Positions 47,297 to 50,644 of a stretch of DNA of 64,000 nucleotides are shown piece by piece. How positions within the stretch are numbered: the stretch's first letter is position 1; each line of letters starts with the position of its first letter. Under the pieces are notes generated by a model. That model searched no databases and had not been told where the DNA came from. It was given only the letters and a program-made list of their open reading frames with translations. This DNA is from Corynebacterium tuberculostearicum. Lineage in GTDB: Bacteria; Actinomycetota; Actinomycetes; Mycobacteriales; Mycobacteriaceae. Made by a program: the position numbers and the translations under genes. The stretch is from contig NZ_CP073096.1 in NCBI RefSeq assembly GCF_030503735.1, positions 1,302,001 to 1,366,000 of the forward strand. Reading direction: 5' to 3'.

Positions 47297-47391
47297 GTGG
47301 AGAAGGCGCTAACAGTAAACTTACAGCAACTAGCAGGGACCTATCAGCCACAATCCATTGCGGTAGCAGCCCAGTACCCCATACTTAAATC

Positions 47392-47536
47392 ATGCGTTTG
47401 AGAGAGCGCATACGAGAGAGATAGAGAGAACCCCTCAATTTCCAGAGGGCGGCTTGAAGCCGATACATGGAAACACCTTGTAGAGAGACGCCTGCGGCCC
47501 TCGGTTCCTTCCGGAGCTGAGGGCCACAGGCGTTTT
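47392..47536 (+). ncRNA. candidate small RNA, repeat unit A
   Basis: The 5' end forms a hairpin TGCGTT-TGAGAG-AGCGCA, followed by a GA-rich stretch ending GATAGAGAGAACC (to 47432). It ends in a strong terminator (CGCCTGCGGCCCTC / GAGGGCCACAGGCG, TTTT, 47489-47536). A -10-like CATACT ends 6 bases before the first base, and GCAGCC lies 26 bases before it. ATG at 47392 opens only a 10-codon frame. The same unit recurs at 49126. Confidence 0.6.
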
Positions 47537-47555
47537 CCCAGCTAGAGCCTAGGCA

Positions 47556-48866
47556 TTATGTGGAAGAAGGCCTTTGTGGAAGCCTTTTATCAAAATCAAT
47601 GAGGCGGCCCAACGCCCAATCTTTATCAGTGAGCAGGCGAGAAAACACCAATCCGGCACCAATAGATCCAACTACCATCATTCCAGTTGCTACGTTGGCC
47701 AAAGCTTGATCCATCTGACCATCGTTCAAATAAAACACTGCCCGGAACATTGTCACCCCCGGGATCATAATCACCGCAGCCGGAACGGTCGTTGTAATAC
47801 GAGGAAGACGCGCCTTTTTAGAAGCAACCGCGCCTAATAACCCAATGAGCAGTCCACCCACGAAGGCCGCAAAGAAAATGGTTGTTCCCGCGTGAATAAG
47901 AACCAAACGGAGCTCATTTGCCACGGTTCCCACACACGCTGCCACTAAGACCATGCGACGGGAAGAATTGAAAAGAAAGGCAAATCCAGCAATTCCCAGA
48001 AAACTTGCCACCGGTGCCAACAAAAACCACTGCATATCCTGTGCAGGTGCAGGCGGGTCAGGGCTAAGTTTGGTCAGCCAGCTGACCATAGAGACCGTGA
48101 AGGCCGCCGTAAATATAACAGTAAAGGCATACCCCAACCTGACAATGCCTGCATCGAAATCAAAGCGCGCTATGTCAATCAATGCAGAGAAAAGGGGAAA
48201 CCCAGGGATTAAGAATAAAACCGCTGCTACAAAGCCCGAGGACAACTCACTCGGCTCTACCGAACCTATGGCCCCAAAAATCTCCGTCAAAAAGAAGAAA
48301 ACGCTGCTCGCCGTTGCGCCGCCAGCAACTACTCCTCCGATTTGATGAACGTGCCGGTGGAGCACCGTGTAGCGAACAAACTGGCCCGCAAACGCCGCTA
48401 AAGCAACCAATCCCACCGCTTCCAATGGGAAAAAGTTAAGGTAAGCAAACGCCGCGCATGCGATCGCGGCGGCAAAGGATAGAACTAAACCGCTCCAGCG
48501 CTTTTTGATATCAAACTCAACGGAATCCAGCATCTCCGCCAATTCTTGGGCAGTAATCCCTGCATAGAGGCGGTTGTGGGTCAGATCTTCTAAGGCTTCA
48601 ATCCGCGAGGCATCAACCGCGGGAGAATGTTGCCGAGCAATGACCGTCCGGAAGTATTCTCCGCGGTGAAACGTACAGGTAATCTGCGTCAGACCCACTG
48701 TGGCATCGAGGTGATCAAACCCCAAAGCTCGCGCACTGCGTTTCATCCCCCTCAGTACGCGATAACCAGAAGTGCCAGCACCCATTAGAAGCATTCCCAC
48801 CCGCAATACGACGTCTGCCTCCACGCCCATTTGCCGGTGCATTTCTGGATCAAATTGTTGTGACAC
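47556..48866 (-). CDS. ThrE-type threonine/serine exporter
   Basis: 436 residues from GTG 48866 (AAGGAGG five bases upstream); the longer ATG 48899 is weaker. The N-terminal cytoplasmic domain (about 15-120) resembles ThrE, followed by about 10 hydrophobic segments with two ThrE half-repeats (AAIACAAFAYLNFFPL; GGVVAGGATASSVFFF; FVGGLLIGLLGAVASKK). It probably exports threonine or serine, in balance with the importer upstream. Flanked on both sides by the paired RNA-like units. Confidence 0.85.
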   Translation of the reverse strand: MSQQFDPEMHRQMGVEADVVLRVGMLLMGAGTSGYRVLRGMKRSARALGFDHLDATVGLTQITCTFHRGEYFRTVIARQHSPAVDASRIEALEDLTHNRLYAGITAQELAEMLDSVEFDIKKRWSGLVLSFAAAIACAAFAYLNFFPLEAVGLVALAAFAGQFVRYTVLHRHVHQIGGVVAGGATASSVFFFLTEIFGAIGSVEPSELSSGFVAAVLFLIPGFPLFSALIDIARFDFDAGIVRLGYAFTVIFTAAFTVSMVSWLTKLSPDPPAPAQDMQWFLLAPVASFLGIAGFAFLFNSSRRMVLVAACVGTVANELRLVLIHAGTTIFFAAFVGGLLIGLLGAVASKKARLPRITTTVPAAVIMIPGVTMFRAVFYLNDGQMDQALANVATGMMVVGSIGAGLVFSRLLTDKDWALGRLIDFDKRLPQRPSST

Positions 48867-49125
48867 ATCTCCTCCTTTGGCACAGCACTTGGCGCTCATC
48901 TAAAGACTTCTCGACCCCAACCGAAACCCGAGAGCGCATTTGTGGTTCACCTAGAATCCTACGTAGAGACCCACCCTTGTAAATGATGCTCATTGATTCA
49001 AAGGCCATCGCTTTCCACACCCATAGGCTGGTTTGATGTGCCATTTGCCCATTTCCCCTACCATTGCCACGGTACTCACAGGTAAAATGTAGGCTCATGG
49101 CAGCCTAGGAAGTTACATTAACTTT

Positions 49126-49214
49126 ATGCGTTTGAGAGAACGCAAGAGAGAGATAGAGAGAACCAGTTCCAGCGCCCAAGGCCCCAAGCGAGGCTCGGGC
49201 GCTGGAGCTGTTTT
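49126..49214 (+). ncRNA. candidate small RNA, repeat unit B
   Basis: Hairpin TGCGTT-TGAGAG-AACGCA, GA-rich linker to GAACC (49165), then terminator arms CAGTTCCAGCGCCC / GGGCGCTGGAGCTG (49164-49177, 49197-49210) and TTTT. TACATT ends 6 bases before the first base, and GCAGCC lies 26 bases before it, as in unit A. A 2-base indel relative to A changes any reading frame but not the hairpin or linker. The IS1249-type element entered its U-tract. Confidence 0.6.
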
Positions 49215-49217
49215 ATC

Positions 49218-50644
49218 GGCCTAAACGACAGAATGTGTTGTTTTGCGGCGTGTCAGGCTAAACGACATTTTGTGTTGGTGGGGTTAGCGTATGTGGCCTT
49301 TGCGTATTCCCATAGAGTGGTTGTAGGCAGTGTCGATGGCACTGTCGTAGGTTGCTGGTCGGCCGTCTTCGTGGCCACTGGTGGCTTGTTTTTCCTGGTT
49401 GGCTAGGGTTTGTGCTTTGGCGAGTGCGTCCTGGCCCCAGTTTTGCTGCCTGGCGATCTCTACAGGGTCGTCAGGCAGTTGCGTGTGGAGGTATAACCAC
49501 CAGTCGCAGGCGATGCGCTGTTGTTCGTCGCGCAGTCCGCGGTGGGTGTGCATAAGTTGCTTAATTTGTGAGTTCACCCCGCCTTCTAGCTTGTTGGTCG
49601 TGCGTTCAAACCGTTGGCCTTCTTCGGCTTCGGTGAGGTAGGCAAAGAGGTGTCCTTGTTGGCTCATTTTCTTTAGCTGCAGGTAGATTCCGCGGTGAGT
49701 GTAGTGGGTGTACCACCACTTTTTGTTCCGGCGCTTGGACTTTGGAATCTGGTCGAAAGGAACGTCTTTGACGTAGGTTTTGGCTTTGAGCTGGGTGCTA
49801 AATACGGTGCCGAACTGTTGTAGTTTTACGGTCCATTCGGCTGCTTTATCCAGGTTGTCGACGGCGAGTAGTTCAAAGGAAAGTCGTTGTAATGCTTTGC
49901 CCATAGCGGAAGTGGGATGAAGGCCGGTGGCGCGTTGGATATTGCGTTTGACGTGGACAATGCAGCGTTGAACCGGGGTATTAGGCCACAAGTGGTGCAG
50001 TGCTTTAAGGCCTCCGGCATCCCCATCGCAGGTCACCAATTGTGGTGGGGCTAGTGGGTCGAGCAGGCGCGTGTAGGACCACGAGGATTCTTTCGTGCAC
50101 CAGAACCAATTGATGACATGGCTGGAGTCGGCAGCTACAACAAGGCACTTGGTGTTGAAGTAGGTGCCGTCGATGAAGACTTGATCGTAGATTCGCTGCT
50201 TATCAACGCTTCGGGGAGGTTGGATAAGCCAGAACGGTTTAAAGCGTCGTTGCAAAGTTCGCGGTGAAACACCGCAGGTTTTAGCTGTTTCTTCCAGGCT
50301 GTTGCTGGAGGTGAGCCAGAAAATGAAAAGGCGGAACCATTTGGCTTGCACAGCATCGTTATTCACGCGGGTGAAGGTGGCCTTGCAGGTGCGGCATCGC
50401 CATCGTTGGCGCCCAGCACTCGTTGTTCCGTGTTTCGTGCATGTCCCGCCGCAGACGGGGCATCGAGGATGATTTTTACTCATCCCCTCATCGTGAACCT
50501 AGGTGCCTAGCACACCGGCATGTCTTTGGCGGTATTTCATGGTTGAAGCTGGAATATCCCTTTGGATAAGTGAAATAGTCGTAATATCAGCACGCCAGAC
50601 CGGCTAGCCGTACAACCTCACCAACACATCCTGTCGTTTAGGCC
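49218..50644 (-). mobile_element. IS1249-type element (IS256 family)
   Basis: Terminal inverted repeats GGCCTAAACGACAGAATG (left) and GGCCTAAACGACAGGATG (right, complement), both continued by TGTTG. Flanking 8-bp duplication GTTTTATC (49210-49217, 50645-50652) is the IS256-family size. A second tip-like copy GGCTAAACGACATTTTG lies inside at 49257. It carries one intact transposase, so it may be active. Confidence 0.93.
49284..50483 (-). CDS. IS1249-type transposase
   Basis: 399 residues. An N-terminal zinc ribbon (CPVCGGTCTKHG ... CRTCKATFTR) is followed by an HTH (SLEETAKTCGVSPRTLQRRF) and a mutator-type DDE core: FIDGTYF, TCDGDAGGLKALHHLWPNT with CIVHVKRNIQ, and a C-terminal Glu in TTNKLEGGVNSQIKQ. 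Full length, no stop. It mobilises the element. Confidence 0.92.
   Translation of the reverse strand: MSKNHPRCPVCGGTCTKHGTTSAGRQRWRCRTCKATFTRVNNDAVQAKWFRLFIFWLTSSNSLEETAKTCGVSPRTLQRRFKPFWLIQPPRSVDKQRIYDQVFIDGTYFNTKCLVVAADSSHVINWFWCTKESSWSYTRLLDPLAPPQLVTCDGDAGGLKALHHLWPNTPVQRCIVHVKRNIQRATGLHPTSAMGKALQRLSFELLAVDNLDKAAEWTVKLQQFGTVFSTQLKAKTYVKDVPFDQIPKSKRRNKKWWYTHYTHRGIYLQLKKMSQQGHLFAYLTEAEEGQRFERTTNKLEGGVNSQIKQLMHTHRGLRDEQQRIACDWWLYLHTQLPDDPVEIARQQNWGQDALAKAQTLANQEKQATSGHEDGRPATYDSAIDTAYNHSMGIRKGHIR

Follow-up and report, generated by a model that had tools for sequence, protein, structure and literature searches.

Structured small-RNA-like units beside thrE in Corynebacterium tuberculostearicum belong to a multi-copy family found in the genus

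The threonine/serine exporter gene thrE of Corynebacterium tuberculostearicum (47556–48899, minus strand; PF06738 and PF12821) lies between two short plus-strand units of similar sequence, unit A (47392–47536) and unit B (49126–49214), which raises the question of what these units are and whether they have any connection with the gene beside them, itself a neighbour outside the RNA. Positions are those of the window, by which we mean the whole 64,000-nucleotide stretch that was analysed (G000:C1:1302001-1366000, from a 2.5-Mb genome). An earlier note on this DNA had read them as twin small-RNA-like units, conserved as RNA rather than as peptide, and had supposed that they represent a small RNA family acting on nearby amino-acid transporters. 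From sequence comparison we consider it reasonably likely that A and B belong to a family of structured small RNAs (sRNAs), apparently not described before, that are transcribed independently, are co-regulated and act in trans.

The 5' hairpin, GA-rich linker and terminator-like hairpin said to be shared by the two units were borne out by sequence checks and by predicted folds. Folding gives the P1 hairpin of unit A (ATGCGTTTGAGAGAGCGCAT, 47392–47411) an 8-bp stem and that of unit B (ATGCGTTTGAGAGAACGCA, 49126–49144) a 7-bp stem, and P1 closes with a GAGA loop in the folds of both and of a third copy, unit C, described below; the G/A base difference in the stem leaves a U-G or a U-A pair, the former as the note had recognised. 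A 19-base pattern of the hairpin, allowing up to three mismatches, matched only units A and B in the window (0.08 matches expected from shuffles), and the folding z-scores of the two units were -7.36 and -7.46, respectively. The GA-rich linker follows, at 47412–47430 in unit A (by comparison and folding) and at 49145–49164 in unit B. In unit A, comparison then places an H-type pseudoknot at 47432–47473, a structure that the folding program cannot show, composed of stem S1 (47432–47436/47445–47449), the 6-bp stem S2 (47439–47444/47468–47473) and an inner hairpin (47451–47461); a second GA tract (GUAGAGAGAC, 47480–47489) and a terminator-like hairpin with TTTT (47488–47536, by folding and comparison) complete the unit. 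The pseudoknot is absent from unit B, where the linker adjoins a terminator-like hairpin (49165–49214, arms 49165–49177/49197–49209) of sequence CCAGCGCCC...GGGCGCTGG, again with TTTT at the foot of the stem. A terminator pattern scan reported only a short alternative stem in unit B and nothing on the plus strand in unit A.

Promoter-like regions precede both units on the plus strand (47334–47391 for A, comprising upstream boxes and a -10-like element, and 49079–49125 for B). The GCAGCC 26 bases upstream and the -10-like element ending six bases upstream that had been pointed out earlier are present in both (CATACT at 47380–47385 in A, where the presumed transcript start is 47392; TACATT at 49114–49119 in B), the part of GCAGCC that is conserved family-wide being the CAG around -25. 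Unit A has CAG boxes at -58, -47 and -25 and a CAT at -36, in 11-bp phasing, and unit B has CAG boxes at -47 and -25; a sigma-70 scan flagged neither promoter. The next genes, thrE after unit A and an insertion sequence (IS) transposase after unit B, are both on the minus strand, and on this orientation we rejected an attenuator or riboswitch role for A and B, in agreement with the note's view that they are not attenuators.

Unit C lies elsewhere in the same genome (C1:271553), between genes that we take from their sequence to be thiC-like and nicotinamidase-like, the former identity being supported by a TPP riboswitch located in front of thiC, on the other strand from the unit. Among 201 genomes of the same genus, 22 contained an exact match to the core pattern, and a scan of named genomes for the exact pattern listed carriers that include C. 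striatum, C. minutissimum, C. aurimucosum, C. tuberculostearicum and C. kefirresidentii as well as C. curieae, C. yonathiae, C. macginleyi, C. flavescens and C. phoceense. A covariance model trained on 14 sequences (R1) matched in 36/242 same-genus genomes, and a broader model of 26 long forms (R2) matched in the same 36, with 117 matches and 1–6 copies per genome, these models drawing on sequences from some of the very genomes that were searched and all searches over more than 40 genomes using stricter filters that lose weak matches. The short-form model (R3) matched in 37/242 genomes, missing two of the 36 (G143 and G171) and adding three (G021, G107 and G233), which were dropped because by eye they showed neither an RTGCG hairpin with GA linker nor the family promoter. 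In a family-level draw, R1 matched three of 201 genomes, all Corynebacterium (1/31 genera), and in an order-level draw R2 matched only the genome studied here (1/249 genomes, 1/68 genera). The covariance-model search of corynebacterial genomes proposed in the note therefore recovered the family in relatives rather than the absence that would have told against it.

We examined the stretches around some of the copies, from 25 of the 36 genomes; 42 sources yielded 69 model matches, of which the two weakest (L077:5260 and L101:6458) were dropped as chance. The 67 remaining units were sorted by eye into 49 long forms, 17 short forms and one decayed-looking copy (L075:4490). Four stretches contain a long and a short unit on the same strand some 0.3–1.8 kb apart (L081:4465-4895, L102:4437-5071, L103:4280-6150 and L105:4915-5730).

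The two subtypes, about 90 or 150 nt in size, are exemplified by our two units. The long subtype, like unit A, consists of the GAGA-loop hairpin, GA-rich linker, H-type pseudoknot, second GA tract and terminator, while the short subtype, like unit B, lacks the pseudoknot and has the hairpin, the GA linker and a terminator conserved in sequence among short forms. MAFFT misaligned two pseudoknot groups, and thus one was aligned alone and the rest by model-based alignment, in which the inner hairpin is still poorly aligned. Pairing held in 99.7% of cells when the first 14 sequences were assessed, and sliding the partner by 1–3 columns reduced it to 24–51%. Double-sided changes affected five pairs in these sequences compared to 1.8 in shuffles (reached by 4/500) and 11 cells compared to 2.0 (0/500), and the covariation score was 0.181 compared to 0.104 (0/500); further pair types were no more numerous than in shuffles (10 vs 9.7, 272/500).

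In the long units a C-rich S1 encloses a loop whose bases form S2 with some seven bases further downstream, and an extra hairpin stands in the third loop; this inner hairpin contains UGAGA, a further GA-type motif, in many long units (L083, L094–L097 and others). A first, looser test of the pseudoknot found a mean of 6.4 bp in 30 loops, while swapped loops averaged 5.1 bp and reached up to 8, and found no S1 in L075:4490. As this test was too permissive, it was replaced by an anchored and weighted one, designed after that result, in which the S2 score was at least 5 in 29/31 distinct long units, compared to 18% when loops were swapped (532 swaps) and 16% when they were shuffled. Two long units, both from L090, were without an uninterrupted S2. 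S2 pairs 1–7 are each represented by 3–5 standard pair types in the 31 long units, in a parse that counts standard pairs only and from which, as from the anchored test, the decayed-looking copy was left out. The first loop is 1–2 nt long in 24/31 long units and S2 abuts S1 in 30/31, a short first loop with S2 abutting S1 being the geometry of an H-type pseudoknot. Among short forms, the closing hairpin shows compensatory C-G/U-A change in 6/16, at two pairs. A closing stem of at least nine pairs ends the unit in 67/67 cases, counted without a shuffle control, and its foot carries at least four T in five bases in 54/67; the other 13, including unit C, in which the stem is followed only by TTGT, have no more than three.

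Upstream of most units, a -10-like (C)CATACT or CATAAT ends six bases before the presumed start and CAG recurs further upstream. In 22 non-redundant regions out of 67, two CAGs lay 11 bp apart 14 times (0.3 expected), 22 bp apart 12 times (0.2 expected) and 33 bp apart 11 times (0.1 expected), counts that are not independent, since one sequence can give several distances, and that were reached by none of 300 shuffles preserving base composition only; distances of 10, 21 and 43 were also raised. The favoured CAG starts are -68, -59/-58, -48/-47 and -26/-25, the last falling within the core promoter where it stands at -25, and a CAT is often found near -36, while in some short forms (L103, L105) the boxes are weak or absent. 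Operators of the OmpR/PhoB type are direct repeats at 11-bp spacing, and a layout with one helical turn between boxes, the last ending about 10 bp ahead of the -10 element, is reminiscent of pho-box promoters; the CAG boxes are direct repeats with that 11-bp spacing as far as sequence can tell, and at 11, 22 and 33 bp they look like OmpR/PhoB-type operators. With up to three mismatches allowed, the full phased pattern occurs in this genome at unit A (no mismatch), at unit C (three) and at one other site (three), compared to one site in the reversed control, and does not match at unit B, and with so few sites this strict search gives no sign of further genes carrying the whole pattern. We infer that each unit is a stand-alone gene with its own putative promoter.

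The present arrangement around thrE appears to have a history of deletion and insertion. Genomes G199, G230 and G006 share the order unit 1 (long), a gene for a major facilitator superfamily (MFS) protein, unit 2 (long), thrE and unit 3 (short). The MFS protein of G199 (identified by PF07690) has 86–100% identical matches in these three genomes, only distant relatives (27–36%) in G218 and G138 and no match in the genome studied here; G230, which is labelled as the same species, keeps the gene. When positions 47334–47560 of the window were compared with L068:4400-6400, the promoter of unit A agreed with that of unit 1 at 42/44 positions and with that of unit 2 at 32/45, its downstream flank matched unit 2, and its terminator combined a 5' arm like that of unit 1 with a 3' arm like that of unit 2, leaving one C-A mismatch. 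Because the promoter matches unit 1 and the flank unit 2, with the switch within the terminator, the best reading of unit A is that of a recombinant produced by deletion of the MFS gene between units 1 and 2. Two units do flank thrE, but their appearance as twins is partly accidental, given that relatives carry three around the MFS gene and thrE. These repeats thus seem to reshape the genome, a transporter gene having apparently been deleted in this strain.

At the other end of the locus, an IS element (49218–50644, minus strand) encoding a Mutator-family transposase (49284–50483) is inserted at the U-tract of unit B, with an 8-bp direct repeat on both sides (GTTTTATC, identified by eye) and inverted ends of 24–28 nt, and leaves the terminator hairpin and TTTT intact. 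L082 and L102 likewise have a similar IS end within about 30 nt downstream of unit terminators, hinting that the IS prefers these terminators (3/67 units, with no control).

Several readings other than a family of sRNA genes have to be weighed against these observations. Leaderless genes are common in actinobacteria and 59/67 units begin with ATG or GTG, as would be expected of leaderless small-peptide genes with the start codon at the presumed +1 and products such as MRLRER(I/M)RER; however, ACG, GCG, TAG or TTG stands at this position in 8/67, open reading frames measure anything from 0 to 67 codons across the 67 units, and indels break the frame while the pseudoknot covaries. Since neither start codon nor frame is conserved, it is the RNA that is kept, as the note had argued from a 2-base indel between A and B; this indel is real, linker lengths and frames differ among the family copies, and on these grounds we rejected the peptide reading as the most improbable of all those considered. 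Only a little less improbable is that the units act in cis, as attenuator or riboswitch leaders or simply as elaborate terminators of the genes beside them. Every unit does close with a terminator-like hairpin, some copies lie just 3' of a gene on the same strand (for example, d 68–121 in several cases), and by hand count the next open reading frame of at least 90 aa is on the same strand in 15/66 units, but it is antiparallel in the other 51, a conserved promoter-like region precedes the units, and a covarying pseudoknot would not be needed for a simple terminator. The neighbours vary as well: in the stretches from 25 genomes, in which open reading frames were called mechanically, the copies adjoin different genes, presumably including thiC/pncA, an Mqo-like gene, ribosomal-protein genes, an enoyl-CoA-hydratase-like gene and ABC lipoproteins, and, as named from domain matches, ThrE, MFS, Aa_trans and YrhK. 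This variation leaves action on nearby amino-acid transporters, a link that rests on the thrE locus, unsupported, so that of the note's proposal the sRNA-like family and the constraint at RNA level stand and the transporter link does not. A mobile or selfish repeat with no cellular function, which we also think improbable, would account for multiple intergenic copies that vary in number, lie close together and in one case (L075:4490) look decayed; against it are the compensatory changes and the loci shared across genomes (thiC/pncA in three, thrE in 11/25), and a phage or plasmid origin was discarded as the exact pattern was absent from viral contigs and unit A had no blastn match in plasmids.

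Returning to the family of sRNA genes that we favour, each unit would be transcribed from a promoter of its own, in most cases one carrying CAG boxes in helical phase, and a common regulator, perhaps of OmpR/PhoB type, would switch the units together. In the long form the H-type pseudoknot may keep the GA tracts apart and protect the RNA, and the units would act in trans by offering the GA tracts to one invariant partner, a constant partner being suggested by the fact that copies which have diverged elsewhere retain the GA tract. RsmX/Y/Z titrate RsmA, and by analogy the GA tracts may titrate a purine-binding RNA-binding protein, a possibility that we hold tentatively and consider slightly likelier than base-pairing to CU-rich mRNAs. 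Base-pairing would make the units classical antisense sRNAs that alter translation or stability, a mode of action shared by many bacterial sRNAs that combine a terminator with an exposed tract, and the GA tract ranks with the best conserved parts and appears more than once in a single long RNA; yet near complements of the tract (14 nt, up to two mismatches) occur outside the units four times compared to five in the reversed control, and purine tracts would be expected to leave purine-rich ribosome binding sites unmasked. Extended antisense pairing through the GA linker was thus discarded for want of a signal above that control, and it is because long complements are not enriched that titration is slightly favoured over antisense action, which we regard as somewhat unlikely. 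Our confidence in titration was itself lowered from a slightly higher level because the folds partly pair the GA tracts. While the linker of unit A is unpaired in the pseudoknot model, the nested minimum-energy fold pairs part of it with the S1/S2 strands, and in nested folds the U-run is base-paired to the 3' ends of GA tracts (that of the linker in unit B and the 3' half of the second tract in unit A), and full exposure of the tracts is therefore not supported. A fuller version of the analogy, a counterpart of the Gac-Rsm system in which a response regulator acts through 11-bp-phased CAG boxes on redundant pseudoknotted RNA genes as its main or only targets and these RNAs titrate a GA-binding post-transcriptional regulator, is in our judgement a long shot; we know of no protein-decoy system of this kind in Corynebacterium.

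The terminator-like ends of A and B and the conserved non-coding RNA structure are features by which sRNA genes are recognised, and the family seems to be undescribed. In the window no Rfam 15 family reached the gathering score, and a search of six loci at E≤1 gave nothing over gathering on a unit, recovering the TPP riboswitch beside unit C, an unrelated snoRNA-model match and a sub-threshold microRNA-model match to both strands of the unit C terminator hairpin. None of the 5.39 million papers searched contained the core sequences in any of four spellings, and literature searches listed no paper recognisable as describing these RNAs, a scope that leaves aside subscription journals and supplementary tables. 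Regulation by sRNAs is poorly understood in corynebacteria, in which to our knowledge Hfq is not known. The covarying pseudoknot, conserved GA motif and shared boxes may offer an entry point to it, as the GA motif could be used to fish for the partner and the promoter to fish for the regulator.

Two known classes of RNA were considered and set aside. TRAP-binding RNAs carry GAG/UAG triplets with spacers of 2–3 nt and are accompanied by a TRAP gene, whereas the spacers here are 1 nt and PF02081 had no match in this genome (0/1), the control giving a match in Bacillus subtilis only. Type III toxin-antitoxin RNAs consist of pseudoknots repeated in tandem, with a toxin gene downstream, whereas each long unit has a single pseudoknot and the downstream reading frames are varied and mostly antiparallel. 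The trans-encoded sRNAs of C. glutamicum, catalogued with structure prediction by Mentz et al. 2013 (PMC4046766), are likewise intergenic and corynebacterial, in a different species. Our exact-pattern scan of named genomes had no C. glutamicum record among its matches. The purS and ilvB motifs of Corynebacterium are mentioned in PMC11109978.

Like 6C RNA and other actinobacterial sRNAs of Rfam, the units are intergenic and end in a terminator; the difference is that the window gave no Rfam match exceeding the gathering score. The same difference, together with the pseudoknot, separates them from Qrr and OmrA-B, multi-copy sRNAs under one regulator with which they share the presence of multiple similar intergenic copies and common upstream boxes. 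Decoys of the CsrB/RsmZ type carry repeated GGA in hairpin loops that bind CsrA/RsmA, and no GGA is found in the loops of A or B; GGA does occur in the P1 loop of the short forms in L081, L102, L103 and L105, and GGGAG follows the inner hairpin in some relatives. RsmX/Y/Z and CsrB/C are decoy sRNAs under GacA control, and the Corynebacterium units resemble them in comprising several redundant short RNA genes with common upstream boxes, a terminator and a repeated purine motif, but differ in that this motif is GAGA/AGAGAUAGAGA rather than ANGGA and that the long form contains an H-type pseudoknot.
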